Part shown: piece by piece, positions 13,594 to 35,117 of the stretch | Layout: every line of letters starts with the position of its first letter | Position numbering within the stretch: the first letter of the stretch is position 1 | Assembly (NCBI GenBank): GCA_910579155.1 | Contig: CAJTTS010000002.1 | Span: forward strand, 46,087-110,086 | DNA: 64,000 bases | Direction: 5' to 3' | Origin: an uncultured Oscillospiraceae bacterium | GTDB lineage: Bacteria; Bacillota_A; Clostridia; Oscillospirales; Oscillospiraceae | Notes under the pieces: generated by a model | Database searches by the model: none | Told to the model about the DNA's origin: nothing | Seen by the model: only the letters and a program-made list of their open reading frames with translations | Translations under genes and position numbers: made by a program

Positions 13594-14406
13594 CTACCTG
13601 CCGGCAAACACCGGCTTGCGCTTTTCCAGGAAGGCATCCACCGCTTCGCCGTGGTCCCGGGTCCGGGTCAGGCGGTTGGCCGCCTCCACCTCCTGGGCCA
13701 TACCCGTGTACAGCCCCGGATACATGGTGCGGTTGATCCCCGCCTTGATCTCCGCGTAGGTGAGGGCCGGACCAGCGGCCAGTTTACGGGCCAGCTTGTC
13801 CACCTGGCCGGGCAGCTCCTCCCGGCTCCAGGCGGAGGTGATGAGCCCCCACTGCGCCGCCTCCCTGCCGGTGAACCGCCGTCCGGTCATAAACAGGTCG
13901 GTGGCCCGGGCCGGACCCAGACGCGGGGGCGCCATCACCGAGGCCCCCATATCCGGGGCCAGGGCCACGCCGGAAAAGGCGAACACCATTTTGGCGTCCT
14001 CCTCCGCCAGGGCAAAGTCGCAGGCCAGGGCCAGGCTCATGCCGCCCCCCGCCGCCGCCCCCTCGATCCAGGCGATTACCGGCTTGGAGAGGTTCCGGAT
14101 GGCCAGCACCACCTGGTTCAGCGTCCACATATTGTCCCGGGTGTCCGTCTCCGGCTCCCGGCCCGCCCGGTAGGCCTCCACCCGCTTCTTCATGGAGGTG
14201 ACGTCTCCCCCGGCGCAGAATTTACCCTGCGCCCCCCGGAGGACCACCGCCCTCACCGCCGGGTCCCGGCCCGCCTGCTCCAGGGCGGCGGTGAGCGCCT
14301 TGGCCATGGGGATGGACAGGGCGTTCAGCTTTGCCGGGTCGTTGAGCAGCAGGGTGGCCACACCCTCCTCCACCGCGACTTCCACCAGTTGAGTGCTCTT
14401 CTCCAT
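13594..14406 (-). CDS. Enoyl-CoA hydratase/isomerase family protein (crotonase 1)
   Basis: Crotonase-fold proteins act on acyl-CoA thioesters. The 270-residue product has the oxyanion-hole regions GKFCAGGDV (about residues 61-69) and EGAAAGGGMSLALACD, and a family C-terminus DAFLEKRKPVF. Both glutamates of classical enoyl-CoA hydratases are missing: the equivalents are Ser124 (GGGMS) and about Ser145 (VFAFSGV). It keeps an aspartate in APDMGAS (Asp152), as in isomerase- and PaaG/BadK-type relatives. It may therefore isomerise or otherwise process an acyl-CoA rather than hydrate it (inference). The gene is monocistronic, divergent from the nitronate-monooxygenase operon, and starts at an ATG behind AAAGGA. 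Confidence 0.85.
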   Translation of the reverse strand: MEKSTQLVEVAVEEGVATLLLNDPAKLNALSIPMAKALTAALEQAGRDPAVRAVVLRGAQGKFCAGGDVTSMKKRVEAYRAGREPETDTRDNMWTLNQVVLAIRNLSKPVIAWIEGAAAGGGMSLALACDFALAEEDAKMVFAFSGVALAPDMGASVMAPPRLGPARATDLFMTGRRFTGREAAQWGLITSAWSREELPGQVDKLARKLAAGPALTYAEIKAGINRTMYPGLYTGMAQEVEAANRLTRTRDHGEAVDAFLEKRKPVFAGR

Positions 14407-14425
14407 AACCGATCACATTCCTTTC

Positions 14426-14446
14426 TGCCGCCCGGCGGCATTTTTT
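14426..14446 (+). terminator. Terminator-like hairpin in the crotonase 1 leader
   Basis: TGCCGC pairs with GCGGCA across a three-base loop and is followed by TTTTTT on the plus strand. It lies in the 5' leader of the minus-strand crotonase, pointing the opposite way. It may stop antisense transcription out of the crotonase gene before the next plus-strand promoter. The stem is short. Confidence 0.4.
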
Positions 14447-14557
14447 ATTGTTATTATTTACTATAGCGGGCGGCGGCTGATTTTTCACTGTCAAATCCTA
14501 CAAAAATCAGGGGGGTATCTCTGTTGTCACGGCGTTCGCTTTTTGTAGCAACTGACA

Positions 14558-14586
14558 TTGCAAGAACGGGCGCACCGCTTTACAAT
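14558..14586 (+). promoter_or_regulatory. Probable sigma-A promoter of the nitronate monooxygenase-acyl-CoA dehydrogenase-CoA transferase operon
   Basis: TTGCAA (14558-14563) and TACAAT (14581-14586) are separated by 17 bases, each one or two mismatches from consensus, 59 bases upstream of the start codon at 14645. Confidence 0.65.
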
Positions 14587-14644: not shown

Positions 14645-15616
14645 ATGATCCAGACAAAAATGACCCAGCTCCTCGGCATCCAGCACCCCATTATGCAGGG
14701 CGGCATGCAGCACCTGGGCACCCCGGAGCTGGCTGCGGCCGTGTCCAACGCCGGCGGACTGGGCACCATCAACGTGACGATCTACCCCGAGTTTGAGGAT
14801 TTCCGCGCCGCGGTGCAGAAGATGAAATCCCTCACCGACAAGCCCTTCGCGGTCAACGTGTCCATTCCCCCCGATGTAAACCCCGGCGACAAGACCGGCG
14901 AATACCTGAAGATCTGCTCCGAGGAAGGCGTAAAGATCATCGAGTTGGCCGGCGGCAACCCCGCCCCCTTCGCCCCCGTCATCAAGGGCTACGGCATGAC
15001 CCTGATCGTCAAGATGGCCGCGCTGAAGCACGCCAAGAAGGCCCAGTCCGTGGGCGCCGACATGGTCACCATCGTGGGCTATGAGGTGGCCGGACACCCC
15101 GGCATGGGCGAGCTGAGCAGTTTCGTGCTGGCCGACAAGGTCTCCCACGAGTTGGACATCCCCGTGATGCTGGGCGGCGGCGTGGCCGACGGCTACGGCC
15201 TGGCCGGCGCCCTGAGCCTGGGCTGCGCCGGCGTGGTCATGGGCACCCGCTTTGTGGCCAGCACCGAGGCCGTCATCAGTGACGCCCACAAGCAGTGGAT
15301 CGTGGACCACCAGGAGGGAGACACCACCACCTGCCAGCGCTCCATCCGCAACATGGTCCGCGTGGCCAACACCGCCAGCGCCCAGGCCTGCCTGGAGATG
15401 GAGAAGAAGGGCGCCACCCTCCAGGAGCTGATGGCCGTCATCTCCGGCCGGAACAGCAAGGACGCCTACCAGTCCGGCGAGGTGGAAAAGGGCCTGTTCC
15501 CCGTGGGCCAGACCATCGGCCTGATCCAAGACGTGAAGCCCTGCAAGGAGATCATCGACGAGGTCATGGCCCAGGCCGAGGCGCAGATCGCCCGGGTCAA
15601 CGCCATGCTGAAATAA
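14645..15616 (+). CDS. Nitronate monooxygenase/FabK-like FMN flavoprotein (copy 1)
   Basis: This is a TIM-barrel FMN protein of the nitronate monooxygenase (2-nitropropane dioxygenase-like) family, which also includes FabK enoyl reductases. It shows HPIMQGGMQ near the N-terminus, SNAGGLGTIN, and GYEVAGHPGMGE with the conserved active-site histidine (His151), then GGGVADGYGLAGAL and GVVMGTRF for the FMN phosphate. In an anaerobe, and next to an acyl-CoA dehydrogenase and a CoA-transferase, an oxygen-dependent nitronate oxidation seems unlikely; a flavin-dependent reduction or isomerisation of an enoyl-CoA is an alternative (inference). It is the first gene of a three-gene operon with an AGGAGG ribosome binding site. 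A close paralogue is at 20197-21168. Confidence 0.88.
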   Translation: MIQTKMTQLLGIQHPIMQGGMQHLGTPELAAAVSNAGGLGTINVTIYPEFEDFRAAVQKMKSLTDKPFAVNVSIPPDVNPGDKTGEYLKICSEEGVKIIELAGGNPAPFAPVIKGYGMTLIVKMAALKHAKKAQSVGADMVTIVGYEVAGHPGMGELSSFVLADKVSHELDIPVMLGGGVADGYGLAGALSLGCAGVVMGTRFVASTEAVISDAHKQWIVDHQEGDTTTCQRSIRNMVRVANTASAQACLEMEKKGATLQELMAVISGRNSKDAYQSGEVEKGLFPVGQTIGLIQDVKPCKEIIDEVMAQAEAQIARVNAMLK

Positions 15617-15629: not shown

Positions 15630-16781
15630 ATGCACGGACTGATTCACCCCGACGACCAGCAACGCGAGCTGGTGGAAATGGTACGCAATTTCATGAACAA
15701 GGAGATCAAGCCTCACGTGCGGGAATTCGAGGAGGCCGGCGGCTATCCCGACCACCTGGTACAGATGGGCAAGGACATGGGCCTGACCGTTATGCAGGTG
15801 CCCGAGCAGTACGGCGGCCTGGGGCTGAGTACCACCACCACCGCTATGATGCTGGAAGAGGGCTCCAAGGTGGAGAGCACCTACATCTCCATGTTCAACA
15901 TCACCAATATGGGCGCCAAAATCGTCATGTTCGCCGGCAACGAGGAGCAAAAGCAGCGCTATGCCGACATCCTGGCCGACGGCGGTATGTCCTCCTTCTG
16001 CCTCACCGAGCCGGGCGCAGGCTCCGACGCCGCCTCCGTGCGCACCACCGCCACCCGCAAGGGCGACAAGTACATTATCAACGGCAACAAGATGTTTATC
16101 ACCAACGCCACCATCGCCGACGTATTCCTGGTGGTAGCTTCCACCGACCTGAACAAGGGGTATAAGGGCCTGGCCACCTTCATTGTAGAGCGCAACCGCC
16201 CCGGCGTTACCGTGGGCAAGAAGGAGGACAAGCTGGGTATGCGGCTGTCCGTCACCGCCGAGGTGGCCTTCCAGGACGTGGAAATCCCCGCGGAGAACCT
16301 GGTGGGCACCGAGGAAACCGGCTTCGCCAACGCCATGAAGGTACTGGAGCTGTCCCGTCCGTTGGTGGCCGCCTCCTCCGTGGGCTCCTCCCAGCAGGCC
16401 ATCGACATCGCCGTGAAGTACGCCCAGGAGCGGGTCCAGTTCGGCCAGCCCATCTGGAAGTTCCAGGCCGTCCAGATGATGCTGGCGGACATGCAGATGC
16501 GCACCAGCGCCGCCCGCGCCCTGGTCTACAACGCCTGCGCCCTCATCGACGCGGGGCTGCCCTGCTCCAAGGAGGCCGCCATGGCCAAGTGCTACGCCGC
16601 CGACGCCTACCAGAAGAACGCCACCGACGCGGTGCAGATTCTGGGCGGCTACGGCGTGATGAAGGAGTACATGGCCGAGAAGCTGTACCGGGACTCCAAG
16701 GTCACCCAGATCGTGGAGGGCACCAACCAGATCCAGCGCATGGTCATCGCCAAGCAGATGATTAAGGAGAACAAAATTTAA
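15630..16781 (+). CDS. Acyl-CoA dehydrogenase (copy 1)
   Basis: The FAD-dependent dehydrogenase introduces the alpha,beta double bond into an acyl-CoA and passes electrons to an electron-transfer flavoprotein. The 383-residue protein has the usual helical N-domain, middle beta domain (CLTEPGAGSDAASVRTTA, the FAD/substrate signature) and C-terminal helices ending YRDSKVTQIVEGTNQIQR; the probable catalytic glutamate is Glu363. Length fits short- or medium-chain family members. It is 13 bases after the nitronate-monooxygenase gene and 33 bases before a CoA-transferase, so all three are co-transcribed. No ETF genes lie in the window. The acyl substrate is unknown. Confidence 0.93.
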   Translation: MHGLIHPDDQQRELVEMVRNFMNKEIKPHVREFEEAGGYPDHLVQMGKDMGLTVMQVPEQYGGLGLSTTTTAMMLEEGSKVESTYISMFNITNMGAKIVMFAGNEEQKQRYADILADGGMSSFCLTEPGAGSDAASVRTTATRKGDKYIINGNKMFITNATIADVFLVVASTDLNKGYKGLATFIVERNRPGVTVGKKEDKLGMRLSVTAEVAFQDVEIPAENLVGTEETGFANAMKVLELSRPLVAASSVGSSQQAIDIAVKYAQERVQFGQPIWKFQAVQMMLADMQMRTSAARALVYNACALIDAGLPCSKEAAMAKCYAADAYQKNATDAVQILGGYGVMKEYMAEKLYRDSKVTQIVEGTNQIQRMVIAKQMIKENKI

Positions 16782-16814: not shown

Positions 16815-18035
16815 ATGAGAGCTTTGGAAGGAATCCGCGTAGTCGAGCTGGCCACTTACGTGGCGGCGCCCAGCGGCGGGCGCGTGCTGGCCGACTGGGG
16901 CGCGGAGGTCATCAAGGTGGAGAGTCCCAAGATGGACATCTGGCGCAACTACGGCAAGACCTTCGCCGGTCCCGCCAACAACGACGAAAACCCCGTCTTT
17001 GACGTGCCCAACGCCAACAAGAAGAACCTGTGCATGGACCTGAAGAACCCGGAGGCCATGAAGGCGTTCCACAAGCTGCTGGCCACCGCCGACGTGTTCA
17101 TCACCAATAACAGGCCCAAGCCCCTCAAGCGCATGGGCCTGGACTATGAGAGCTTGAAGGCCAAATACCCCCGGCTGGTCTGCGGCTATGTCACCGGCTA
17201 CGGCGAGGAGGGCCCCGACGCCGACGCCCCCGGCTTTGACACCGTGGCCTACTGGGCCAAGAGCGGCTTTATGGCCGATATGCGCATCGACGGTCCCGGC
17301 TCTTACCCCATCTACGCCCCCGGCGGCGTTGGCGACAACAGTTGCGGCACCATGATGGCCGGCGGCATTGCCGCCGCCCTCTTCGCCCGGGAGAAAACCG
17401 GCCGGGGCGACAAGGTGTCCGTCTCCCTGTTCGGCCTGGCCACCTGGGTCATGAGCCTGATGAACACCACCGTACAGCCCCCCTTCAGCTACAAGTACCC
17501 CAAGACCCGCTTCGAGGGCCGCCCCATCACCATCCCCTATGAGTGCGCCGACGGGGAGTGGATCATGATTAACATCATGGAGTGGGAGCGCTACCGGGAC
17601 GCCTTCTTCGCCGCGTTGGACATTCCCGAGGTGGGCGACGATCCCCGCTTCCACACCGCCGCCGAGCTGGGCAAGCTGGAGAACCGGGAGCCCCTGGTGA
17701 AAATCCTGGAGGAGGCCTTCCACAAGTTCCCCTCCGACGTCATCGACCAGCGGCTCACCAAGGCCGACGTGGTCCACAGCAAGCTGGCCCACTTCCGGGA
17801 CGCGGTGGTCAGCGAGCAGGCCAAGGCCAACCACTACGTGGAACACATCACCTGCCCCAGCGGCCAGGACTACTGGCTGGCCAGGCCCTGCGTCCAGTTG
17901 GAGGAGGCGGGCCTGCCCCCCTACGAGCTGGCCCACGCCCTGGGCCAGGATACCCGGGACATCCTCGCCGAGCTGGGCTATACCCAGGAGCAGATCGACC
18001 AGTTGGTGGAGCACGGCGCCGTCAAGGCGAAGTAA
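16815..18035 (+). CDS. Family III CoA-transferase (CaiB/BaiF), paralogue A
   Basis: Family III CoA-transferases move CoA between carboxylic acids through a mixed anhydride on an active-site aspartate. The N-terminus LEGIRVVELATYVAAPSGGR is typical, as are LADWGAEVIKVE and GLDYESLKAKYP. The catalytic aspartate is probably Asp174 in GGVGDNSCGT. The 406-residue length is normal for CaiB, FldA and BaiF-like enzymes. It is the last gene of the 14645-18035 operon and is followed by a strong terminator. Family members serve carnitine, bile acids, oxalate, aryl-lactates and branched hydroxy acids, so the family alone does not give the substrate. Confidence 0.93.
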   Translation: MRALEGIRVVELATYVAAPSGGRVLADWGAEVIKVESPKMDIWRNYGKTFAGPANNDENPVFDVPNANKKNLCMDLKNPEAMKAFHKLLATADVFITNNRPKPLKRMGLDYESLKAKYPRLVCGYVTGYGEEGPDADAPGFDTVAYWAKSGFMADMRIDGPGSYPIYAPGGVGDNSCGTMMAGGIAAALFAREKTGRGDKVSVSLFGLATWVMSLMNTTVQPPFSYKYPKTRFEGRPITIPYECADGEWIMINIMEWERYRDAFFAALDIPEVGDDPRFHTAAELGKLENREPLVKILEEAFHKFPSDVIDQRLTKADVVHSKLAHFRDAVVSEQAKANHYVEHITCPSGQDYWLARPCVQLEEAGLPPYELAHALGQDTRDILAELGYTQEQIDQLVEHGAVKAK

Positions 18036-18142: not shown

Positions 18143-19378
18143 TCAGGCGTGCTGCCGGGCGATGTGCTTTTCCAGCATCTCGTCGATTTCCTCCGGGCTG
18201 AACCCCAGCTCGGCCAACACCTCCCTGGTGTGCTCGCCCAGCATGGGGCCCCGCTTCCACTCCGGCAGACCCATGCGCTCGCTGCGCATACTGGGCCGCA
18301 CCAATACGGACTTGTTGCCGTTGGGACAGGTGACCTCGTGGATGAACTCGTTGGCCCAGGCCTGCTCGCTCTTCTCCATGTCGCTGAAATGGGCCATGCG
18401 GTCGTTGACGATGTCCGCCTCGGTGAGCAGCTTGCACCACTCCTCGGCGGTCTTGGTGGCGTATATCTTGGCAAACTCCTCCATGAGGTACTTGCGCACC
18501 TCCGGGTCCCGCTGCTTCTCGCTGGTGCAGAACCTGGGGTCGTTGCCCCACTCGTCCACCCCCAGCACGTGACACAGCTTGGGCCACTGCTCCTCGATCT
18601 TCAGCAGGGTGGTGGTCACCCACTCGCCGTCCTTGGTGCGGAAGGCGGAGGCGGTGGGGGCGCTGTTGTCCCGGCGCTTGGGGAACTTGTTGCCGTAGCG
18701 CTCCTCGGTGGACACGGTCATGATGTGGAAGCACCACAGGGCCGTGCCGTACAGGCTGGAGTACACCCGGTCGCCCAGACCGGTCTGGGTGCGCTTGAAC
18801 AGGGCGGCGGCGATGGCGTAGCACAGGCCCATGGCGGTGATGATGTCGCCGGGGCCGGCGGAGCCGTACACCGGGTAAGAGTCGGGGCCTTCCAGGCTCA
18901 TATCCACGTTGAAACCGCTGCTGGCCCAGAAGGCCACGGTGTCGAAACCGGGGTCGTTGGCCTTGGGTCCCTTCTCCCCAAAGCCGTTCAGGCTGGCGTG
19001 GATCAGCTTGGGATAGCGATCCTTCAGGCTGTCGTAGTCCAGGCCCAGCCGCTTGAGGGCATTGGGCCGGGTGTTGGTGAGGAACACATCGGCGTCGGCC
19101 AGCATGCGGTGGATAGCCTCCATCCCCTCGGGGGTTTTCAGATCCAGCACGATGCCCCGCTTGCCCGCGTTCAGGTTGTCGAACAGGGGATTCTCATCGT
19201 CGGTACAGGGGACAAAAAAGGTCTTGGGGAAGTTGCGGAACATATCCCCCTTGTCCGTCTCAATCTTGACGATCTCGCAGCCCCAGTCGGCCAGCATACG
19301 GCCACAGGAGCTGGCCGCCACCATGGTGGACAGCTCCACCACTTTAATGCCCTCTAAGGGGCGGTAAACCTCCGCCAT
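18143..19378 (-). CDS. Family III CoA-transferase (CaiB/BaiF), paralogue B
   Basis: The 411-residue protein begins YRPLEGIKVVELSTMVAASS and keeps LADWGCEIVKIE, LGLDYDSLKDRYPKL and the probable catalytic aspartate Asp178 in SAGPGDIITAM. It is the last gene of a four-gene minus-strand operon (CoA-transferase C, nitronate monooxygenase 2, crotonase 2, CoA-transferase B). The start ATG follows AGGAGG, which overlaps the stop region of crotonase 2. Like paralogue A it should activate a carboxylic acid by taking CoA from a pathway product. Having two CoA-transferases in one operon suggests two distinct acid/CoA pairs or a two-subunit enzyme (inference). Confidence 0.93.
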   Translation of the reverse strand: MAEVYRPLEGIKVVELSTMVAASSCGRMLADWGCEIVKIETDKGDMFRNFPKTFFVPCTDDENPLFDNLNAGKRGIVLDLKTPEGMEAIHRMLADADVFLTNTRPNALKRLGLDYDSLKDRYPKLIHASLNGFGEKGPKANDPGFDTVAFWASSGFNVDMSLEGPDSYPVYGSAGPGDIITAMGLCYAIAAALFKRTQTGLGDRVYSSLYGTALWCFHIMTVSTEERYGNKFPKRRDNSAPTASAFRTKDGEWVTTTLLKIEEQWPKLCHVLGVDEWGNDPRFCTSEKQRDPEVRKYLMEEFAKIYATKTAEEWCKLLTEADIVNDRMAHFSDMEKSEQAWANEFIHEVTCPNGNKSVLVRPSMRSERMGLPEWKRGPMLGEHTREVLAELGFSPEEIDEMLEKHIARQHA

Positions 19379-19390: not shown

Positions 19391-20182
19391 CTAGGGTTTT
19401 TTGTTGTACTCGGGGGTGCGGCGCTCCAGGAACGCATTCACCGCCTCGGTGAAATCGGGCTGGCGGCCGCACCAGGCGATCTCCAGGGCCTCGGTGGCGA
19501 AGTAGTCGGCCATGCGGTCATAGAAGAAGCGGTTGATGACCCGCTTCTGGGCGCTGTGGGCATCGCCGGACTTGGAGGCCAGCTTGGCGGCCAGGGCATA
19601 GGTGGTCTCGGCCAGCTTGCCCTCCTCGGCCAGCACGGTGGCCAGCCCCATCTTCACGCATTCCTCGCCCCGGCAGGCCTCTCCGGTCATCATCAGCAGC
19701 TTCGCCTTGTCCGGGCCCACCAGGCGTATCAGGTTGTAGATGCTGCCCGTGTCGCCGCTCAGGCCCAGGTTGACAAAGGCCATGGTCATTTTGCTGCTGG
19801 GGGCCACCACCCGGAAATCGCAGGCCAGGGCACAGCTCAGGCCCGCTCCGGTGGCCACGCCGTTAATCATGGCGATGACCGGCTTGGGGCAGTCCCGGAT
19901 GGCGGCGGGCATGATGGACACGCTCTGGATCTGGTTGGGGTCCAGGTACGTCCCGCTGTCGATCAGCATCTTGAAGCGCTTGATGTCCCCGCCGGCAGAG
20001 AAGTGCTTGCCCGCGCCGGTGATGACGATGGCCCCCACGTCGTTCCGGGCCCCCAGCGTGGCCATGGCGTCGGCGATCTCGCCATAGCTCTCCCGGGCAA
20101 AGGCGTTGCTGACCTCCGGACGGTTGATGGTGACGGTAGCGACGCGGTCCTTCACGTCCACCAGGATGGTCTGATAATTCAT
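19391..20182 (-). CDS. Enoyl-CoA hydratase/isomerase family protein (crotonase 2)
   Basis: The 263-residue crotonase-fold protein has INRPEVSNAF, the oxyanion-hole motif HFSAGGDIKRF, INGVATGAGLSCALACDF and a C-terminal NAFLERRTPEY. The two catalytic glutamates of true enoyl-CoA hydratases are replaced (Ser116 in GAGLS and a non-acidic residue in MAFVNLG), while Asp144 in LSGDTGS is kept, as in crotonase 1. Isomerase, dehalogenase-like or hydrolase-type chemistry is therefore as likely as hydration. The ATG at 20182 is preferred over the in-frame GTG at 20188 because AAGGAGG then has normal spacing (about 9 bases). Its stop lies 12 bases before CoA-transferase B. Confidence 0.87.
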   Translation of the reverse strand: MNYQTILVDVKDRVATVTINRPEVSNAFARESYGEIADAMATLGARNDVGAIVITGAGKHFSAGGDIKRFKMLIDSGTYLDPNQIQSVSIMPAAIRDCPKPVIAMINGVATGAGLSCALACDFRVVAPSSKMTMAFVNLGLSGDTGSIYNLIRLVGPDKAKLLMMTGEACRGEECVKMGLATVLAEEGKLAETTYALAAKLASKSGDAHSAQKRVINRFFYDRMADYFATEALEIAWCGRQPDFTEAVNAFLERRTPEYNKKP

Positions 20183-20196
20183 GTCCACGTTCCTCC

Positions 20197-21168
20197 TTAG
20201 CTGATCTGGGCCTGGACCCCGGCGATGGCGGCCTCGGCCTCGGCAATGATGTCATCCATGAGCTTGGCCACCGGCCGCACGTCGTTGATGAGACCCATGG
20301 CCGGGCTGGCAGCGAAAAGTCCGCCGTCCACGTTGCCGTCCTGGTAGCACTGGCGGCTGATGCGCCCGGCGATGACGGTCATCAGCTCTTTCAAGGTGGT
20401 GCCCCGCTTCTCCATCTCTGCGGTGAGCTTGGCGGCCATGTTGTTGGACACCCGGATGGCGTTGTGGATAGACTTCTGGACGATGATGGTATCCTTCTCG
20501 CCGTGGTTCAAAATCCAATTTTTGTGGTTGTCGCTGATGGGGCACTCATCGGTGGCCACAAAGCGGGTACCCATCACCACACCGGAGGCCCCCAGGGCCA
20601 GCGCCGCGGCCAGGCCCTTGCCGTCGGCCACGCCGCCCGCGGCCAACACGGGGCAGCCGCACTCGGCGGCCACCCGGTTGGCGATGACGAAGGTGCCGAT
20701 ACCGTCCAGGCTGGGATGGCCCGCCACCTCGTAGCCCGCGATGGTAATCACGTCGGCCCCCTTCTCCCACATCCGCTTGGCCACATGGGAGTTGGGGCTC
20801 TTGTGGATGATTTTGATGCCGGCCTGCTTGCAGGCGGGCATGAACTCGCTGGGGTCGGCCCCGGCGAACTCAATGGCAGCCACGTTGTGCCTGGCGCACA
20901 CGTCGATGTACTTCATGATCTCCGGGCCCTTGGTCAGGTCGGGCACCAGGGAGATGTTGACGATGAACGGCTTGTCAGTCAGGTCCTTCATCTCCTTCAC
21001 GCCGTCGTCAAAGGCTTCGGCGCTGTCCCAGCAGGTGACGTTGATGGTGCCCATGCCGCCGGCGTTGGACACCAGGGAGGCAAATTTGGGCCAGCCGATG
21101 TTTTGCATACCGCCTTGAACAATGGGCTTTTCGATCCCGAACATCTCGGTAAATTTGGTTTGAATCAC
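20197..21168 (-). CDS. Nitronate monooxygenase/FabK-like FMN flavoprotein (copy 2)
   Basis: This paralogue of the 14645 gene has the same length (323 residues) and the same landmarks: KPIVQGGMQ, SNAGGMGTINVT, GYEVAGHPSLDG with active-site His151 at the same position, AAGGVADGKGLAAAL and GVVMGTRFVA. The start codon is GTG (complement of 21166-21168) behind GAGGAGG. Each copy is in an operon with CaiB-type CoA-transferases and beta-oxidation-like enzymes, so the flavoprotein probably works on a CoA thioester or its precursor rather than on nitroalkanes (inference). It is the second gene of the minus-strand operon. Confidence 0.88.
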   Translation of the reverse strand: MIQTKFTEMFGIEKPIVQGGMQNIGWPKFASLVSNAGGMGTINVTCWDSAEAFDDGVKEMKDLTDKPFIVNISLVPDLTKGPEIMKYIDVCARHNVAAIEFAGADPSEFMPACKQAGIKIIHKSPNSHVAKRMWEKGADVITIAGYEVAGHPSLDGIGTFVIANRVAAECGCPVLAAGGVADGKGLAAALALGASGVVMGTRFVATDECPISDNHKNWILNHGEKDTIIVQKSIHNAIRVSNNMAAKLTAEMEKRGTTLKELMTVIAGRISRQCYQDGNVDGGLFAASPAMGLINDVRPVAKLMDDIIAEAEAAIAGVQAQIS

Positions 21169-27093: not shown

Positions 27094-28419
27094 TTGAGTC
27101 CTGAAATCCTCAGTTTGATCGGTATCGTTGTCGGTGTGGCCGTATTCATTGTCGTGTCGTTTATGGGCTTTGATATTAAGGTCGTCGCCCTGCTGGCTGC
27201 CGCCATCGTGGCCTTGATGAGCGGCTTGAACCCCTATCAGGCCCTGACCGAATTCTTTATGCCCGGCGCGGCCGGCGCTGTGGGCAGCTACTTCATGCTG
27301 TTCACCTTCAGCGCCATCTTCGCCCGTATTATCGGCGAATCCGGCGCCGCCGCCTCCATCGCGTTCAAAATCACCCGGCTGGCCCGGACCGCCAAGAGCA
27401 TCGAGACCCAGCGCTTCCTGGCCGTCCTCACCCTGCCCCTGGTCAACGCCATCATCACCATGGGCGGCGTGAATGTGTTCGTGGTCACCTTCATCATGGT
27501 GGGCCTGGCCCGCCCGCTGTTCAAAGAGCTGGATATTCCCTGGTGGCTGTACACCTGTAACAGTCTGGGTTCCTCCACCTTCACCATCGGCATGATGCCC
27601 GGTTCTCCCCAGATGCAGAACCTGATCCCCATGGAGACCTTCGGCACCCAGCCCACCGCGTCGCCCGTGCTGGGCATCCTGTGCGCCTGCCTGACCATGG
27701 GCCTGGGCTCCTGCTACATCATGTACCAGGTCCGCCGCACCTCCAAGAAGGGCGAGGGCTTCATGCCCACCGGCGAGGTTATCGACAAGGAAAACCTAAC
27801 CGCCCCCAACATCGAGGAGATGCCCCTGTGGAAGGCCCTGCTCCCCATGGTCGTCCTGCTCATCGTCCTTAACGGCTTCAAGATGCCCGCCCCCATCTCC
27901 CTGCTCATCGCCATTATCGTGGCCTACCTGCTCTATGATCCCCGCAAGCTCAACATCAAGAAGCTGATCACCGACGGCATGACCGCCGGCCTGATCCCCC
28001 TGTTCGGCCTGGCCTGCGCCACCGGCTTCGGCAAGGTGGTCTCCAACGTCAGCGGCTTCACCACCATCACCAACTCCCTGGAGGTTCTGGGCACCGGCGC
28101 GTTCTCCATCGTCATCATCATGAACGTGTGCTCCGGCATCTGCGGCTCCGCCTCCTCCGGCGAAAAGATCGCCCTGGACGCTTTCGGCGACCGCTTCATC
28201 GCCAGCGGCATCCCCGGCGACCAGCTACACCGCCTGATCGCCATGTCCTCCACCGGCCTGGACACCCTGCCCCACAGCGCGGGTATCGTTACCGCCCTCA
28301 CCGTGTCCAAGCTGACCCACAAGCAGGCCTACATCAACAACTTCGTCCTGTCCGTGCTGCTGCCCATCATCATGTCCTTCCTGGCCGCCGGCCTCATCAG
28401 CATGGGCTTCTACTTCTGA
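27094..28419 (+). CDS. GntP-like carboxylate permease (copy 1)
   Basis: The roughly 441-residue polytopic membrane protein has about 11-12 hydrophobic segments, and its sequence looks most like GntP/citrate-type ion-transporter superfamily permeases, which take up organic acids with protons. Notable are repeated small-residue re-entrant-like segments (SLGSSTFTIGMMPGSPQMQN and CSGICGSASSGEKIAL). The first ATG of the frame (27085) abuts the ribosome binding site; a TTG at 27094 has GGGAG at the right distance and gives the natural N-terminus SPEILSLIGIVVG. It probably imports the acid substrate of this cluster (inference). The acyl-CoA dehydrogenase follows 75 bases later. Family placement is moderate, since I matched by eye. 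Confidence 0.75.
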   Translation: MSPEILSLIGIVVGVAVFIVVSFMGFDIKVVALLAAAIVALMSGLNPYQALTEFFMPGAAGAVGSYFMLFTFSAIFARIIGESGAAASIAFKITRLARTAKSIETQRFLAVLTLPLVNAIITMGGVNVFVVTFIMVGLARPLFKELDIPWWLYTCNSLGSSTFTIGMMPGSPQMQNLIPMETFGTQPTASPVLGILCACLTMGLGSCYIMYQVRRTSKKGEGFMPTGEVIDKENLTAPNIEEMPLWKALLPMVVLLIVLNGFKMPAPISLLIAIIVAYLLYDPRKLNIKKLITDGMTAGLIPLFGLACATGFGKVVSNVSGFTTITNSLEVLGTGAFSIVIIMNVCSGICGSASSGEKIALDAFGDRFIASGIPGDQLHRLIAMSSTGLDTLPHSAGIVTALTVSKLTHKQAYINNFVLSVLLPIIMSFLAAGLISMGFYF

Positions 28420-28494: not shown

Positions 28495-29712
28495 ATGCTT
28501 GATCTAAACGGCACCGGTCTCATCATGACCGAGGAGGAGAAGGATATCGTGGCCATGGTCCACGACTTCGTTCTCAAGGAAGTACGCCCCACCGCCGCCG
28601 AGTACGACCGTACCGGCGAGCTGAACTGGGACGCCTACAACAAAGCTTTTGAGATGGGCCTGATTTGCGCCGATCTGCCTGCCGAGTACGGCGGCCAGGG
28701 TATGAGCGCCGTCACCGGCGCCTGGATCCGCGAGGAGCTGATGTATGGCGACGCCGGCTTCGGCCTCACCTGCGGCACCAACAACCTGGGCATCAAGCCC
28801 GTGCTCATCGCCGGCACCGAGGAGCAGAAAAAGTGGTGCGTGGAAACCCTGATGAGCGACAAGCCCGGCCGCGACCCCCGCTGGCCCAAGAAGCGCAGCG
28901 GCTTCGCCGCCTTCGCCCTCACCGAGCCGGACGCCGGCTCCGACGCGGGCGCGTGCCGCACCACCGCCGAGAAGACCGCCGACGGCAGCGAGTATGTCCT
29001 GAATGGCCGCAAGTGCTTTATTACCAACGCCTGCTACGCCGATTTCATGTGCGTGGTGGCCTCCGTGGACCGCAGCTTGGGTTACAAAGGCCTGACCATG
29101 TTCCTGGTGGACGCCCACCTGCCCGGCGTGTCCATCGGCAAGCACGAGGACAAAATGGGCATCCGCCAGTCCGCCACCTGCGACGTCCTGTTTGAGGACG
29201 TGCATATCCCCGCCTCCGCCATCATCGGCAAGGAGGGCGAGGGCTTCAAGATCGCTATGAAGACCCTGGAGCAGGGCCGCGCCGGTGTGGGCAGCGGCTG
29301 TGTGGGCATCATGCGGTCCATCCTGGAGGAGGCCGCCAAGTACGCCCAGGTCCGCGTCACCATGGGCAAGCCCATCTATAAGCAGCAGGCCATCTCCGCC
29401 AAGCTGGCCGACATGCAGATCGCCATCGAGACCAGCCGCGCCATCGGCATGAAGGTGGCCGCCCTGCTGGATGCCGGCGATCCCGGTGCCGCCGCGCTGG
29501 GCCCCATCGCCAAGTGCTACTGCTCCGACGCGCTCAACCGCGTGGCCACCGAGGGCGTGCAGATTCTGGGCGGTTACGGCTACATGCGCGACTACCCCAT
29601 GGAGAAGTATATGCGCGACGCCAAGATCTTCCAGATCTTCGAGGGCACCAACGAGATCCAGCGCGTGGTTATCAGCGGCGACGTGATCCGCAAGTACAAG
29701 GTAAACAAGTAA
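28495..29712 (+). CDS. Acyl-CoA dehydrogenase (copy 2)
   Basis: The 405-residue flavoprotein has the acyl-CoA dehydrogenase signature FALTEPDAGSDAGACRTTA, the C-terminal ILGGYGYMRDYPMEKYMRDA and the probable catalytic glutamate Glu383 in FEGTNEIQR. Relative to copy 1 it has an insertion after the N-terminal domain (around SDKPGRDPRWPKKRSG), so it is not a recent duplicate and probably uses another acyl-CoA. It starts behind AAGGAGG and is in an operon with the permease and a MaoC-type hydratase. Electrons presumably go to an ETF not encoded in this window. Confidence 0.93.
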   Translation: MLDLNGTGLIMTEEEKDIVAMVHDFVLKEVRPTAAEYDRTGELNWDAYNKAFEMGLICADLPAEYGGQGMSAVTGAWIREELMYGDAGFGLTCGTNNLGIKPVLIAGTEEQKKWCVETLMSDKPGRDPRWPKKRSGFAAFALTEPDAGSDAGACRTTAEKTADGSEYVLNGRKCFITNACYADFMCVVASVDRSLGYKGLTMFLVDAHLPGVSIGKHEDKMGIRQSATCDVLFEDVHIPASAIIGKEGEGFKIAMKTLEQGRAGVGSGCVGIMRSILEEAAKYAQVRVTMGKPIYKQQAISAKLADMQIAIETSRAIGMKVAALLDAGDPGAAALGPIAKCYCSDALNRVATEGVQILGGYGYMRDYPMEKYMRDAKIFQIFEGTNEIQRVVISGDVIRKYKVNK

Positions 29713-29758: not shown

Positions 29759-29779
29759 CCATGATAAGGAGGTTACAAA

Positions 29780-30643
29780 ATGCTGGATCAATCCGCGGTG
29801 GGCCTGTCCACCACCCAAAAATTTGCCTACACCTGGCGGGACATCATCCTCTACAACCTGAGCGTGGGCGCTCAACAGAAGGAATTGGAGTACGTCTACG
29901 AACAGGGGCTCAAGGCGGTCCCGGCCTTCGGCGTCATTCCCTGCCTGGCCACCTTCGGCACCAAGGACCCCCACGGGGATCAACCCCTGATGCCCACCAG
30001 CAAGGTGGAGGGCTTGAAAAAAGAGGGCACCCTCCACATGGATCACAAGCTGGTCATCCACCGGCCCATCCCCGTGGAGGGGGAACTGACCATCGAAAAG
30101 GTCATCAAAAACGTCTACGACCGGGGCGCCGGCAAGGGGGCCAAGATCGACGTGGAAATCGTCGCCAAGGATGCGGACGGCGAGGCCATCTTCACCAACA
30201 CCATGGGCTATCTCAACCGCTACGCTGGCGGCTTCGGCGGGGAAAAGCCCCCCGCCTCCTCCGTGTCCATCCCCGAGGGGGAGCCCAAATTCGTCGCGGA
30301 GGACGGCTATCCCATGAACGCCCCCCTGCTCTACCGGCTCACCGGGGACACCTTCCCCCTCCACGCCGACCCGGAGTTCGCCAAGCGCAGCGGCTTCGAC
30401 CGCCCCATCGTCCACGGGCTGTGCAGCCTGGGCTACGCCTGCCGTCTGCTCATCGGCATCCTGTTCCCCGGCCAGCCGGAGCGCCTGACCTCCCTGGAGG
30501 TGCAATTCCGCAATGTGGCCATGCCCGGCGACCGCTTCGCCCTCCAAATTTGGGAGGAGGCGGAGGCCGCCGCCCTGTTCCGCATGGTGCGCATCGGCGA
30601 CGGGAAGGCCATCCTGGACAAAGGCCGCGTCTGCTGGGCATGA
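29780..30643 (+). CDS. MaoC-family 3-hydroxyacyl-CoA dehydratase (hydratase 2)
   Basis: This 287-residue double hot-dog protein resembles the hydratase-2 domain of eukaryotic multifunctional enzyme 2. The N-terminal half is a MaoC-like hot dog without catalytic residues. The C-terminal half has the hydratase-2 motif YRLTGDTFPLHADPEFA (Asp190, His195) followed by GFDRPIVHGLCSLG. It would hydrate 2-enoyl-CoA to (R)-3-hydroxyacyl-CoA, or act in reverse, complementing crotonase 3, which is expected to make the (S) product. It starts behind AAGGAGG. Its stereochemistry hints that the cluster may treat branched or steroid-like acyl chains (weak inference). Confidence 0.88.
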   Translation: MLDQSAVGLSTTQKFAYTWRDIILYNLSVGAQQKELEYVYEQGLKAVPAFGVIPCLATFGTKDPHGDQPLMPTSKVEGLKKEGTLHMDHKLVIHRPIPVEGELTIEKVIKNVYDRGAGKGAKIDVEIVAKDADGEAIFTNTMGYLNRYAGGFGGEKPPASSVSIPEGEPKFVAEDGYPMNAPLLYRLTGDTFPLHADPEFAKRSGFDRPIVHGLCSLGYACRLLIGILFPGQPERLTSLEVQFRNVAMPGDRFALQIWEEAEAAALFRMVRIGDGKAILDKGRVCWA

Positions 30644-30736: not shown

Positions 30737-31981
30737 TCAGTCGTGCTGGCGCACCGCGCCGGAGGCCAGCATGGCCTCGATCTCGGCCGGGCCGTAGCCC
30801 AGCTCCTTCAGGACTGCCTTGGTGTGCTCGCCCAGCATGGGGGCGGGCCGGAACTCAGGCAGGCCCATGCGGTCGCTGCGCAGGCAGCTTCGCACCAGCT
30901 CCGCCGACTTGCCGTTGGGGTACTCCATGTGATAGATGAAGTCGTTTGCCTGGGCCTGGGGGTCCTTCAGGATGTCGCCGTAGCTGTAAAGAATCTCGCA
31001 GCACAAATCCTCTTTGTCGAACAGGGCCTTCCACTCCTCCGCCGTCTTGGTGAGGAAAATGCCCTCCAACCGCTTTATCACCGGGCCGCTGACAGCCGGG
31101 TCGTTGAACTTGGCGCGGGTGGCATATCGGGGGTCGCCGATCATGTCCTCCACGCCCATGATGCGGTAGAAGGTATCCGCATCCCCCCGGGCAAAGTTGA
31201 CGATCTGGGGCATGAACCACCGGCCATCGCTGCACTTGTAGGGCGCGCCGAAGGGACTGGAGCTCTCCCGGCGCTTGGGCAGGTTAAAACCGTACTGCGC
31301 GCCGCTGACCAGGATGTTGGCCAGCCATACAGCGGTGCCGTACAGGCTGAGGGACACCCGGTCGCCCTGGCCGGTGGCCCGGGCGCTGAGCACGGCGGAC
31401 ACGGTGGCGGCCATCAGGCCCATGGCGCAGGTCACATCGCCAAAGCCCATAGGCATGTACACGGGATAGGTGTCCGGGCTGTCTCCGTACACCGCCTGGC
31501 TGTACATAAAGCCGCCCCTGGCCCAAAACGCGGTGTTGTCATAGCCGGGGCGGTGGGCCTCCTCGCCCTGCTCACCGTAGCCGTTCATCTGGGCCATGAC
31601 CAGCTTGGGGAATTTGGCGTGGAGGGTATCATAGTCCAGGCCGCTCTTCCGCAGCGCCTCGGAGCGCAGATTGGTGAGGAACACATCCGCGTCCGCCAGC
31701 AGGCGGTACATCACCTCCCGGCCCTCGGCGGTCCCGGTATCCAGGCTGATGGCCCGCTTGTTGGCGTTGAGGTTGTCAAACAGCGGATCAAAATCATCGT
31801 CGGTAGGGGCTCCGATGCCCATGGGCCACTTGCGGAAGTTGTCGCCTCCCTTGGTGTTCTCCACCTTGATGACATCCGCGCCCCAGTCGGCCATCATGCG
31901 ACCGCAGCTTGCCGCCGCCACCATGAGGGACAGCTCCACTACTTTCACGCCCTGCAAGGGTTTATACTGCTCCATCGTCAT
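30737..31981 (-). CDS. Family III CoA-transferase (CaiB/BaiF), paralogue D
   Basis: The protein (414 residues from the ATG at 31981) begins YKPLQGVKVVELSLMVAAAS with MADWGADVIKVEN, SGLDYDTLHAKFPKL and the probable catalytic aspartate Asp182 in MGFGDVTCAM. Its C-terminus (MLGEHTKAVLKELGYGPAEI) is close to that of paralogue B. Three in-frame starts (GTG 31987, ATG 31981, ATG 31975) are possible; 31981 best fits GAGAGG. It stands alone on the minus strand, divergent from the flavin reductase operon. It is the fourth CoA-transferase of this family within 16 kb, all with the catalytic aspartate. Confidence 0.92.
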   Translation of the reverse strand: MTMEQYKPLQGVKVVELSLMVAAASCGRMMADWGADVIKVENTKGGDNFRKWPMGIGAPTDDDFDPLFDNLNANKRAISLDTGTAEGREVMYRLLADADVFLTNLRSEALRKSGLDYDTLHAKFPKLVMAQMNGYGEQGEEAHRPGYDNTAFWARGGFMYSQAVYGDSPDTYPVYMPMGFGDVTCAMGLMAATVSAVLSARATGQGDRVSLSLYGTAVWLANILVSGAQYGFNLPKRRESSSPFGAPYKCSDGRWFMPQIVNFARGDADTFYRIMGVEDMIGDPRYATRAKFNDPAVSGPVIKRLEGIFLTKTAEEWKALFDKEDLCCEILYSYGDILKDPQAQANDFIYHMEYPNGKSAELVRSCLRSDRMGLPEFRPAPMLGEHTKAVLKELGYGPAEIEAMLASGAVRQHD

Positions 31982-32130
31982 ACACACCTCTCTTCCGCCT
32001 GACGGCGGATGTTTTGTAGTTCGGGTTTCCAGCCCGAAAGGTCAAACTGCTACAGCGTGATGATACCACCTTTTCACCCCAGAAGCACCGTTGCATGATA
32101 CAAAAAGGGGCCCGCGGCAGATGGGTCCCG

Positions 32131-32148: not shown

Positions 32149-32254
32149 GAGAACCGGCGTCTCCTCCGGCCCTTTTTGTAGAAAACGAACTATTCACGTC
32201 CCGGCATTTCCCCTATAATAAAACTCAGAAAACCATACCAAAGGAGGAGTTGTC

Positions 32255-32950
32255 ATGCATTATTCCCCCCTGACCGAGGAGTGCCCCCTGGCCCTCAGCC
32301 CCTTTAAGGCCTGCGTGGCCCCCCGGCCCATCGGCTGGATCTCCACTGTGAGCCGGGACGGCGTGGACAATCTGGCCCCCTTCAGCCAGTTCCAAAACCT
32401 GTCCTACGACCCCCCCATGGTGATGATCGCCTGCAATCAGGGCGGCGACGAGCCGGACAATGTGTTCCGCAAGGACACGGTGGTGAACATCGAATCCACC
32501 GGCGCATTCTGCTACAATGCGGTTCCCTGGAACCTGCGGAAGCAGATGAACATCACCGGCGCGGGCGTGCCGCCCCAGGAGGACGAATTCGAGATGGCCG
32601 GGCTTCACAAGGCCCCCTGTCTGCGCATCCCCTGCAAGCGGGTGGCGGAGTCTCCCATCCAGTTTGAGTGCGAGTATATGCAGACCATCCGCATCCCCGG
32701 CTCTACTCCCGGCGGCAAGGGCACGGTGGACCTCATCATCGGCCGGGTGGTGGAAATCCATGTGTCCGACGACGTAATCCTGCCCGGCGGAAAGCTGGAC
32801 TATCAAAAGCTCCGCCTCATCGGTCGGGCGGGCTACTGGGACTACGGCGTGATGGAGGACACCTTCACCATGAAGGTGCCCGGCGTCAGCGCCGCCCGTA
32901 TGGCCGCCATGGAGGGCCGCCGCCCCGATGAGCGGGATCAGGAGCAGTAA
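32255..32950 (+). CDS. Flavin reductase-like FMN-binding split-barrel protein
   Basis: The 231-residue protein has the flavin reductase-like fold: CVAPRPIGWISTVSRDGVDN with the adjoining LAPFSQFQNLSYDPPMVMI, then the FRKDTVVNIES region and a conserved IIGRVVEIHV strand. Members bind FMN and either supply reduced flavin or act as reductases. It is the first gene of a plus-strand operon with a permease and an amidohydrolase, behind AAAGGAGGAG. It may support the flavoproteins of the cluster, or carry out a reductive step itself (inference). Length is typical for the DIM6/NTAB-type family. Confidence 0.85.
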   Translation: MHYSPLTEECPLALSPFKACVAPRPIGWISTVSRDGVDNLAPFSQFQNLSYDPPMVMIACNQGGDEPDNVFRKDTVVNIESTGAFCYNAVPWNLRKQMNITGAGVPPQEDEFEMAGLHKAPCLRIPCKRVAESPIQFECEYMQTIRIPGSTPGGKGTVDLIIGRVVEIHVSDDVILPGGKLDYQKLRLIGRAGYWDYGVMEDTFTMKVPGVSAARMAAMEGRRPDERDQEQ

Positions 32951-32995
32951 TCACCCCCTTGCGCGTCTTTATCAACTGAAACAGGAGGCTGATCC

Positions 32996-34300
32996 ATGGT
33001 CAGTTTCATCGGCATTATTCTGGGCCTGGCCCTCTTCATCGTCTTGGCCTTTCGCGGCCACAACCTGGTGCTCTCCGCCCTGGCCAGCGCCTGCGTCATG
33101 TTCCTGCTCTCCGGCATCAATCCTATGGACGGGCTCATGGACCTCTATCTGCCTGGGCTGGCCGGGTTTATCCGGGACTATTTCCTGCTCTTCCTCTTCG
33201 GCACCCTGCTGGGCCGCCTGATGAGCGACGGGGGCAGTGCCAAACGCATCGCCCTGTCGCTGGCCAGACTCATCGCCAAAAGCAAAACGAACCAGAAATT
33301 TTTCTGCGTGCTGCTGGTGCCCACCCTCTATTTCGCACTGACCTATGCGGGTATTTCCGGGTTCGTGGTGGTCTTTACGGTACTGCCCATCGCCAAGGAC
33401 CTGTTTGAGCAGACGGACACCCCCTGGCGGCTGTACTGCTGCGGCGGTGCGCAGACCATCAGCTCGGCGGTGCTGACCGGCTCCCTCCAGGCCAGCAATG
33501 TCTACGCGGCCAACGTGTGCGGCACCTCTATCACCGCCGCGCCGCTGCTGTCCGTCATCGCCACCGCGGTGTTCCTGCTGGTGAGCCTGGCCATGCTGCG
33601 CTTCACCGCCGCCCGGGTAGAGCGCTCCGGCGAAGGCTTTCTCCCCTCCGGCGCGGGCATCCGGCAGGCCCAGGTAGACGAGGGATTGCCGGAGGAGCGC
33701 CTGCCCCAACTGCTGCCCAGCCTGCTGCCCCTGGGAGTCATTCTGTTTCTGGCCGCCGGACTGGGGTGGGACGTGGTGACGGCGCTGCTTCTGGGCTGCC
33801 TGCTCACCATCGCCGTATGCCGGAAAAACCTGCTCCCCATCCTGAAGCAATCTTTGTCCCTGGGCGCATCGGCCTCCTTCGGCCCCACCGTCAACGTGGC
33901 GGCCACCTATGCCATCGGCGCGGCCATCAAAGGGCTGGCGGGCTTCGCCTTTTTCGAAAGCCTCCTCAGCCGTCTGCCCGATATGGCCCAGGGCGCCGGT
34001 CTGGGAATGCTGGCCGCATTCATCATGGCCTCGGTAACCGCCCCCATCCCCGCCTTTGGGCAACAGATGCTGTCCCATTTCAGCAACGCCGGACTCAGCG
34101 CCGCCATGGCCCACCGGATGATGCTGGTCACCTCTTTTACCAGCATGGCCCCGCACAACGCGGGCATCTCCAACGCCGCCGCCATGTTGCATCTGCCCTA
34201 TGGCAGTTGCTTGAAGATATATATAATCTATACCTACATCCCCGGCATCTGCGCTTTCTTGGCCTGCCTCGCGGCCATCGCTCTGGGCGTCGCCGGCTGA
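32996..34300 (+). CDS. GntP-like carboxylate permease (copy 2)
   Basis: The 434-residue polytopic membrane protein has the same layout as the permease at 27094 (N-terminal SFIGIILGLALFIVLAF, then the GINPMDGLMDLYLPGLAGFI segment that parallels GLNPYQALTEFFMPGAAGAV in copy 1). The two are therefore paralogues of the same GntP/citrate-type superfamily. It probably imports a second organic acid or the same acid under other conditions. The ATG follows CAGGAGG and it is co-transcribed with the flavin reductase-like and amidohydrolase genes. Confidence 0.75.
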   Translation: MVSFIGIILGLALFIVLAFRGHNLVLSALASACVMFLLSGINPMDGLMDLYLPGLAGFIRDYFLLFLFGTLLGRLMSDGGSAKRIALSLARLIAKSKTNQKFFCVLLVPTLYFALTYAGISGFVVVFTVLPIAKDLFEQTDTPWRLYCCGGAQTISSAVLTGSLQASNVYAANVCGTSITAAPLLSVIATAVFLLVSLAMLRFTAARVERSGEGFLPSGAGIRQAQVDEGLPEERLPQLLPSLLPLGVILFLAAGLGWDVVTALLLGCLLTIAVCRKNLLPILKQSLSLGASASFGPTVNVAATYAIGAAIKGLAGFAFFESLLSRLPDMAQGAGLGMLAAFIMASVTAPIPAFGQQMLSHFSNAGLSAAMAHRMMLVTSFTSMAPHNAGISNAAAMLHLPYGSCLKIYIIYTYIPGICAFLACLAAIALGVAG

Positions 34301-34316
34301 AAGGGAGTGTTTTCAC

Positions 34317-35117
34317 ATGACCATTGATTTTCACACCCATTGCTACCCCGATCACCTGGCCGCTACCGCTCTGGGCAAATGGAAGGGCACCGGCGACGTG
34401 GTTTTGCCGGACGGCACCCTGAACGCCCTGCTGTCCGACCTGGACGCCGCCGGCATCCGGCGGGCGGTAGTGCTCAACGTGGCCCACAGGCCCCACAGTA
34501 CCCACGACGTCAACGACTTTGCCGCCGCCATCCAGCGGACCCACCCGGACCGCCTGCGCTGCTTCGGCTCCGTCCACCCGGACGCCCCGGACGCCATGGA
34601 GGAGCTGTTGCGCATCAAGGAGCTGGGACTGTGCGGCGTAAAGCTCCACCCCATGTTTCAGGGATTTGACCCCATGGCGGAGCGCTATTTCCCCCTCTAC
34701 CGGGAGATGGGCCGCATGGGCCTGCCCGTGGTCTTTCACTGCGGCAGGCATCCCAATTTCACCACCGTCCTGCAGCCAGTCCAGATGGCGGCCATCCTGC
34801 CCCAGTTTGAGGGCGCTCCCGTCATCGGCGCGCACCTGTGCGGGCTCCAGGGTGAGACGGACCAACTGGAGCTGCTGGCCTCCTTGCCCGTCTACGTGGA
34901 CTTTGGCTTCTGCGCCCGGTATTTTGATCCGGACACGCTGCGCTCGATCCTGGAGCGTCTGGATGAGGACCGCATTCTGTTTGGCAGCGACACCCCCTGG
35001 GATACCGTCGCCCACGAGCTGGAGGCGTTGCGTAGCGTCGGCCTGCCTCAGCGAAAGCTGAACAAGATATTGTTTGAGAACGCAGCCCGTCTACTGGACT
35101 GGCCAGACGGTTTGTAG
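34317..35117 (+). CDS. Amidohydrolase family protein (metal-dependent TIM barrel)
   Basis: The 266-residue protein starts TIDFHTHCYPD, giving the first HxH metal ligands (His6, His8). It continues with VKLHPMFQGFD, FHCGRHPNF and ends with LFGSDTPWD, where the aspartate is the usual last ligand. This is the amidohydrolase-2 pattern seen in decarboxylases, lactone hydrolases and related hydrolases. It follows the permease by 16 bases. A hydrolase or decarboxylase acting on the imported compound before CoA activation is plausible but unproven. Confidence 0.83.
   Translation: MTIDFHTHCYPDHLAATALGKWKGTGDVVLPDGTLNALLSDLDAAGIRRAVVLNVAHRPHSTHDVNDFAAAIQRTHPDRLRCFGSVHPDAPDAMEELLRIKELGLCGVKLHPMFQGFDPMAERYFPLYREMGRMGLPVVFHCGRHPNFTTVLQPVQMAAILPQFEGAPVIGAHLCGLQGETDQLELLASLPVYVDFGFCARYFDPDTLRSILERLDEDRILFGSDTPWDTVAHELEALRSVGLPQRKLNKILFENAARLLDWPDGL

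Follow-up and report, generated by a model that had tools for sequence, protein, structure and literature searches.

The 64,000-nucleotide stretch of DNA analysed here (the window; contig CAJTTS010000002.1 of an uncultured Oscillospiraceae bacterium, with a G+C content of about 60%) contains an island of 18 genes at positions 13594–35117, in which coenzyme A (CoA) ester families predominate. These account for 11 of the 18 genes (CoA-transferases, crotonases, acyl-CoA dehydrogenases, a ligase and a MaoC hydratase), or for 13 when two flavoproteins of the nitronate monooxygenase (NMO) family are counted. A preliminary description, made from the sequence alone, had listed these genes; open reading frame (ORF) listing together with Pfam and NCBIfam scans recovered all its families and counts. 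It had also remarked on the lack of a thiolase and a 3-hydroxyacyl-CoA dehydrogenase, and the same scans of 13594–35117 found neither among the 18 island ORFs nor among five rival ORFs in other frames (22548–23894, 28504–29742, 29714–30667, 29761–30939 and 30743–32002), which have no family match. Judged by direction and spacing, the genes form eight transcription units (Table 1).

Table 1. Genes, transcription units and shared promoter elements of the island (nt, nucleotides).
Feature	Position	Strand	Description
ECH-1	13594..14406	-	crotonase fold, PaaG/isomerase type, without hydratase Glu pair
NMO-1	14645..15616	+	FMN TIM-barrel oxidoreductase, PA1024/FabK type
ACAD-1	15630..16781	+	acyl-CoA dehydrogenase/reductase, catalytic Glu (EGTNQIQR)
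CoAT-1	16815..18035	+	class III CoA-transferase
CoAT-2	18143..19378	-	class III CoA-transferase
ECH-2	19391..20188	-	crotonase fold, isomerase type, Asp in SGDTG, without hydratase Glu pair
NMO-2	20197..21168	-	PA1024/FabK-type flavoprotein
CoAT-3	21204..22370	-	class III CoA-transferase
ACS	22698..24257	+	AMP-forming acyl-CoA synthetase
ECH-3	24303..25079	+	crotonase with both hydratase glutamates
PucR/CdaR-type regulator	25139..26767	-	GGDEF_2 + HTH_30
GntP-a	27085..28419	+	GntP-family permease, weak match
ACAD-2	28495..29712	+	acyl-CoA dehydrogenase
MaoC	29780..30643	+	MFE-2 type hydratase 2, double-hotdog
CoAT-4	30737..31987	-	class III CoA-transferase
Flavin reductase family protein	32255..32950	+	FMN split-barrel
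GntP-b	32996..34300	+	permease, 28% identical to GntP-a
Amidohydro_2	34317..35117	+	decarboxylase/hydrolase fold
Unit ECH-1		-	single gene
Unit NMO-1, ACAD-1, CoAT-1		+	gaps 13 and 33 nt
Unit CoAT-3, NMO-2, ECH-2, CoAT-2		-	gaps 35, 8 and 12 nt
Unit ACS, ECH-3		+	gap 45 nt
Unit PucR		-	single gene
Unit GntP-a, ACAD-2, MaoC		+	gaps 75 and 67 nt
Unit CoAT-4		-	single gene
Unit flavin reductase, GntP-b, amidohydrolase		+	gaps 45 and 16 nt
ECH-1 promoter element	14460..14505	-	TTTTGT-N34-TATAGT
NMO-1 operon promoter element	14541..14586	+	TTTTGT-N34-TACAAT
CoAT-3 operon promoter element	22422..22467	-	TTTTGG-N34-TAAACT
ACS operon promoter element	22580..22625	+	TTTTGG-N34-TAAACT
GntP-a operon promoter element	26943..26988	+	TTTTGT-N34-TATGAT
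CoAT-4 promoter element	32060..32105	-	TTTTGT-N34-TATCAT
Flavin reductase operon promoter element	32174..32219	+	TTTTGT-N34-TATAAT

All seven units other than that of the regulator share a promoter element: TTTTG[GT], exactly 34 nt, and then a −10 hexamer TANNNT, read from the arm toward the gene, with inverted arms present in all four divergent intergenic regions. The element is real as a sequence pattern. Both strands of the window hold eight matches to TTTTG[GT]-N34-TANNNT, seven of which are the island promoters, compared with a mean of 0.83 and a maximum of four at the other spacings from 10 to 80; within 13501–35200, where other spacings average 0.19 matches and never exceed two, the number at 34 is seven. 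In 5000 dinucleotide shuffles of the four intergenic regions the best spacing never rose above three matches. A spacing of 34 is not enriched in 123 other records (1.54 Mb, partly overlapping), which give seven matches against a mean of 9.2. The eighth match in the window (61405–61450, + strand) lies between a mannitol-dehydrogenase-family gene (59712–61208) and a TauC/SaoP-like ABC permease gene (61669–62499), and may be due to chance or mark a further regulon member, such as an uptake system.

Beyond TTTTG[GT] and TANNNT the consensus is loose, since a stricter joint promoter pattern gave no match. A consensus promoter scan passes only two of the seven promoters (NMO-1 and ECH-1), and the PucR gene has its own promoter, TTGCAT-17-TACAAT, which was spotted by eye and called by no tool. 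Activators commonly bind near −50, and this is about where the TTTTG[GT] element would be positioned. Inverted ACAAAAA/TTTTTGT repeats form six pairs in the window, three of them in island intergenic regions. An interpretation of these repeats as terminators or structured leaders, for which folding was inconsistent (z −3.7, −1.6 and +0.4), was dropped because the fixed 34-nt distance to the −10 hexamer explains them better. The intergenic regions hold other symmetric sequences as well. The palindrome CTGGTC TATAAT GACCAG (32131–32148) is part of the long inverted repeat that separates CoAT-4 from the flavin reductase gene, and a separate 13-nt inverted repeat, AATGACCACACAT/ATCTGTGGTCATT (22501–22545, 92% complementary), is found between CoAT-3 and ACS, in the region of the variant TTTTGG sites; the latter is possibly the site of a second regulator.

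Because the same promoter geometry recurs at all seven non-regulator units, we read them as one regulon and not as a chance assortment. The embedded PucR-type regulator, its gene being central in the island, is probably the protein that binds the shared element. A different view would be that independent small acyl-CoA operons have gathered in one hotspot, as the alternating unit directions, the duplicated families (47% pairwise identity for CoAT-1/3 and CoAT-2/4, 51% for NMO-1/2) and betaproteobacterial NMO relatives without the cassette might hint. We regard this as improbable: it is at odds with the identical 34-nt geometry at every non-regulator unit and with the apparent linkage of NMO-2, MaoC and the amidohydrolase in relatives. 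The same two observations support the preliminary description where it treats the operons as a single unit.

This linkage was approached by proxy, comparing the sizes (at least 3000) of the longest source contigs among relatives of the three proteins. NMO-2 and MaoC relatives have five sizes in common (3616, 13133, 43181, 48782 and 482602), MaoC and amidohydrolase relatives four (9528, 24649, 35240 and 482602), while a control with sizes jittered by 5% gave about 0.2 coincidences per comparison and at most three. From the equal sizes it would seem that the genes for NMO-2, MaoC and the amidohydrolase have remained together in relatives. Among the shared sizes the 3616-base coincidence is the likeliest to be chance; if real, it would place NMO and MaoC within 3.6 kb, compared with 8.6 kb here, which would speak for function and not for inherited order. 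Named relatives among the 120 MaoC matches listed are Pseudoflavonifractor phocaeensis (75%), a Lachnospiraceae metagenome-assembled genome (MAG; 65%), two Oscillospiraceae MAGs (55–56%) and a Deltaproteobacteria MAG (40%). Enterocloster citroniae, for which proteins 74% identical to NMO-2 are named, does not appear among these MaoC matches, most of them nameless, and this counts against the linkage.

Turning to the individual families, CoAT-1 to CoAT-4 all fall into class III of the CoA-transferases, with PF02515 scores of 265–297 bits (cut-off 23.3) and, in all four, the PGFD/PGYD aspartate that we take to be the catalytic residue of this class. The three crotonases of the preliminary description are present, of which only ECH-3 has both catalytic glutamates; in an alignment with it, ECH-1 and ECH-2 lack both, are not of the hydratase type and look like isomerases. 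Its two permeases were likewise found and belong to the GntP family, with scores (22.6 and 24.8 bits) that only just pass the Pfam cut-off of 22.5. Both of its nitronate-monooxygenase-like flavoproteins are there too; they are nearer to PA1024/FabK than to characterised nitronate monooxygenases, and they score 231.3 and 218.1 bits with the FabK model TIGR03151, under its cut-off of 453.1.

The best solved relative of these flavoproteins, PA1024 (entry 6e2a), is titled NADH:quinone reductase, which would agree with the view that they are ordinary nitronate-detoxifying or quinone-reducing enzymes outside an acyl-CoA route. Their surroundings and their family speak against this view: the gene for NMO-2 shares an operon with CoAT-3 and ECH-2, its neighbours on either side (gaps of 35 and 8 nt), NMO-1 lies 13 nt upstream of ACAD-1, and the family members ScdK and IpdC act on CoA esters. 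We therefore hold it to be quite unlikely. An apparent MaoC–NMO fusion encountered in the search, P0217, has a C-terminal end resembling IMP dehydrogenase and was set aside, by eye, as a probable assembly chimera.

The carnitine cai cluster combines class III CoA-transferases with an acyl-CoA-dehydrogenase family enzyme. The preliminary description had seen no match to carnitine pathways, and indeed the equivalog cut-offs of CaiB, CaiA and CaiD are all missed: PRK03525 reaches at most 146 of 413 and PRK03354 at most 222 of 540, while PRK03580 reaches 150 of 500 for ECH-3 and is not among the 25 best matches of ECH-1 and ECH-2. More generally, no island protein attains an NCBIfam curated cut-off, models for carnitine, oxalate, glutarate and cyclohexanecarboxylate included, among the matches listed (the 25 best for the crotonases and the ligase). 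Of the cyclohexanecarbonyl-CoA dehydrogenase models, NF043006 peaks at 330 of 650 and TIGR03207 at 200 of 575, neither reaching equivalog level. No counterpart of BadI or BadH was found: the list of the 25 best of 72–73 crotonase models does not contain BadI, and the island ORFs include no SDR.

In the excerpts of published work used for comparison, the closest cluster found is Scaffold 1013, itself functionally putative, which belongs to a Clostridiaceae bin in a methanogenic culture that degrades naphthalene (PMC6164631). By annotation, both clusters have paired NMO-family proteins, class III CoA-transferases, a PaaG-like isomerase and a GntP permease: Scaffold 1013 encodes two ‘2-nitropropane dioxygenase’/FabK-like flavoproteins (321 and 315 amino acids, aa), two class III CoA-transferases, a PaaG-like isomerase (262 aa), two short crotonase ORFs and a 444-aa H+/gluconate symporter (PMC6164631). 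Its authors questioned the label nitropropane and put forward a reduction of arylcarboxyl-CoA, and one of its flavoproteins has its best match in Clostridium citroniae (PMC6164631), recalling the species name borne by the NMO-2 relatives. Scaffold 1013 differs in that it carries a thiolase together with 3-hydroxybutyryl-CoA dehydrogenases, one according to Table 3 and two according to the Figure 6 legend; acyl-CoA dehydrogenase, MaoC, ligase, amidohydrolase and PucR do not appear in its Table 3 (PMC6164631). Neither a thiolase nor such a dehydrogenase was found among the ORFs scanned in 13594–35117. The island adds two acyl-CoA dehydrogenases, MaoC, the ligase, the amidohydrolase, the flavin reductase and PucR, has two transferases and one permease more, and carries the promoter code besides. 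As far as these excerpts go, it is a catabolic acyl-CoA cluster that is new relative to Scaffold 1013 in the added genes and the promoter code. The preliminary description had suggested that the route may be undescribed; in the open PubMed Central subset no published account of the island was found, so that within this subset it would hold for the island itself, whereas the related Scaffold 1013 cluster is in print. A review on anaerobic degradation of polycyclic aromatic hydrocarbons that cites the Scaffold 1013 paper contains, in its excerpts, neither nitropropane nor nitronate (PMC12016498).

Other systems share parts of this inventory. Steroid C/D-ring degradation also employs an NMO-family flavoprotein, crotonases and acyl-CoA dehydrogenases on CoA esters, but as excerpted it is aerobic and relies on thiolases, SDR-type dehydrogenases and a ring hydrolase of the IpdAB type (PMC13101464, PMC8399759, PMC6429209). 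No such enzyme was found in the island; the tie between ScdK/IpdC and NMO-1/2 is through the family name only (PMC13101464). The bad–ali cluster likewise has a ligase–crotonase operon, an acyl-CoA dehydrogenase and divergent promoters under one regulator, yet the enzymes named in the excerpt include no CoA-transferase or NMO-family enzyme, and its regulator BadR is a repressor (PMC9795900). Acyl-CoA dehydrogenases and a CoA-transferase act on a cyclic dicarboxylate CoA ester in the anaerobic naphthalene thn operon, where ThnP is, however, a family I and not a class III transferase, and nowhere in that paper is nitropropane mentioned (PMC11659651). Finally, the gamma-butyrobetaine bbu cluster of anaerobic gut bacteria pairs class III CoA-transferases with an acyl-CoA-dehydrogenase family enzyme (PMC8364193). 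The island differs from bbu and cai in its many more enzymes, in that no betaine transporter was found in it, and in scores far below the cai equivalog cut-offs. Class III CoA-transferases of the benzylsuccinate and bbu type are heteromeric, their two subunits working only in combination; in the island, CoAT-2 and CoAT-3 share an operon.

What could such a set of genes do? We see an even chance that the island is one regulon by which an organic acid, or a family of related acids, is converted in a CoA-dependent way without oxygen; which protein binds the element, what each enzyme does and what the substrate is are all inferred. A ligand-activated regulator, most probably the PucR encoded within the island, would occupy the TTTTG[GT] sites ahead of the seven weak promoters and switch these on jointly. 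The acid would enter through the GntP-type permeases, by which the product would probably also leave. Going by family, the four class III CoA-transferases would shift CoA from acyl-CoA products onto incoming acids, with the AMP-forming ligase priming the CoA cycle; ACAD-1 and ACAD-2 would dehydrogenate or reduce acyl-CoA, ECH-3 and MaoC would hydrate or dehydrate it, and ECH-1 and ECH-2 would move its double bonds. NMO-1 and NMO-2, again by family, would form or reduce a double bond in a ring or at a remote position, the kind of reaction that ScdK/IpdC carry out on CoA esters of the steroid C/D rings, and, more speculatively, the amidohydrolase could trim the acid by decarboxylation or lactone opening.

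Since four CoA-transferases are present and a thiolase and a 3-hydroxyacyl-CoA dehydrogenase were not found, we favour a mainly reductive remodelling, acid in and acid out, over full beta-oxidation. The substrate is more likely cyclic or branched than straight-chain; quinate or shikimate, for which the literature search turned up no matching paper, would be a guess. The most serious competitor is that the regulon serves complete oxidative degradation, carrying out the early steps of a pathway for a cyclic or branched acid and feeding housekeeping thiolase and 3-hydroxyacyl-CoA dehydrogenase encoded off the island. The order ACS–ECH-3 resembles aliA–badK of cyclohexanecarboxylate catabolism (PMC9795900), and the best argument is that the related Scaffold 1013, as excerpted, does carry a thiolase and 3-hydroxybutyryl-CoA dehydrogenase (PMC6164631). 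As neither a thiolase nor a dehydrogenase was found among the island's ORFs, and in view of four CoA-transferases, which suggest several acid/CoA exchanges and not terminal cleavage, such degradation appears possible but doubtful.

Several points weigh against remodelling by one regulon. The TTTTG[GT] motif was found after inspecting the sequence, an objection answered in part by shuffles that allowed any 6-mer with one free position before TANNNT (maximum four in 200 shuffles, seven observed). The linkage in relatives is deduced from coinciding contig sizes, and NMO-2 and amidohydrolase relatives have a single size in common (482602), which alone is not beyond chance. In ten betaproteobacterial NMO neighbourhoods of 13–20 kb (NMO identity 38–41%), tblastn detected no class III CoA-transferase, and a crotonase or ligase homologue in seven; these are ten of the 11 best-scoring places, one on a 5-kb contig (G027:C149) being left out. 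ACS and ECH-3 could likewise serve ordinary beta-oxidation, with a thiolase and dehydrogenase encoded elsewhere.

As a more specific and tentative version of the remodelling proposal, the island might represent a hitherto unreported anaerobic route in gut-type Oscillospiraceae by which a cyclic acid (alicyclic or hydroaromatic, perhaps plant-derived) is remodelled as CoA esters. The PA1024/FabK-type flavoproteins would then be ring acyl-CoA reductases or dehydrogenases, an anaerobic counterpart of ScdK/IpdC, controlled by a PucR-type activator at a rigid TTTTG[GT]-N34 site. Reading the units as one regulon turns generic acyl-CoA annotations into a testable set of seven promoters. Its study would help settle the role of misnamed ‘nitronate monooxygenases’ in anaerobes, and the island may link gut-type bacteria with conversions of cyclic acids from the diet that have so far had no explanation.

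Among the best 80 of 87 loci, ACS relatives in genome contigs show 24–41% identity and come mostly from Burkholderiales and other betaproteobacteria; searches of three and six genomes found by way of these loci brought up no named Bacillota. No class III CoA-transferase was found in 33 mostly short NMO-2 neighbourhoods from 20 further genomes, plasmid loci included, and two scans of viral contigs found no relative. NMO-2 has matches in 299 plasmid records, none of which reaches 60% identity; among the 25 listed the highest value is 41.4%. Three plasmid NMO neighbourhoods, too few for a rate, differ in content: the Bradyrhizobium one is rich in acyl-CoA genes; in Rhodococcus an amidohydrolase adjoins the NMO gene, with a ligase and a crotonase 3.5–6 kb off; and in Sphingomonas a thiolase and a two-subunit CoA-transferase lie 3.5–7 kb away.

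The island is bounded on the left by a terminator-like hairpin (13551–13586), beyond which lie rhamnose and exopolysaccharide genes. On the right the first gene codes for a small acid-soluble spore protein and is followed by glutamate dehydrogenase and then by a pectin/hexuronate locus; this description covers the nameable genes, several flanking ORFs having no family match or lying outside the scans. Because the nameable neighbours are of such different kinds, the clustering of acyl-CoA genes is not chance. The spore protein gene (35212–35478, − strand; alpha/beta type, PF00269 88.9 bits) adjoins the island directly, which makes a spore-former of the Bacillota the most likely host; the bacterium is probably gut-associated. 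In the glutamate dehydrogenase ORF (36902–38692, + strand, 596 aa) the family model starts at residue 154, which points to about 150 extra N-terminal residues or a wrong start. The pectin/hexuronate locus (42090–61208) comprises gluconate 5-dehydrogenase, KduI, GH88, GH28, a pectinesterase, members of the altronate/galactarate dehydratase and mannitol-dehydrogenase families and parts of ABC transporters; the SDR at 42090, outside the island, is its gluconate 5-dehydrogenase.

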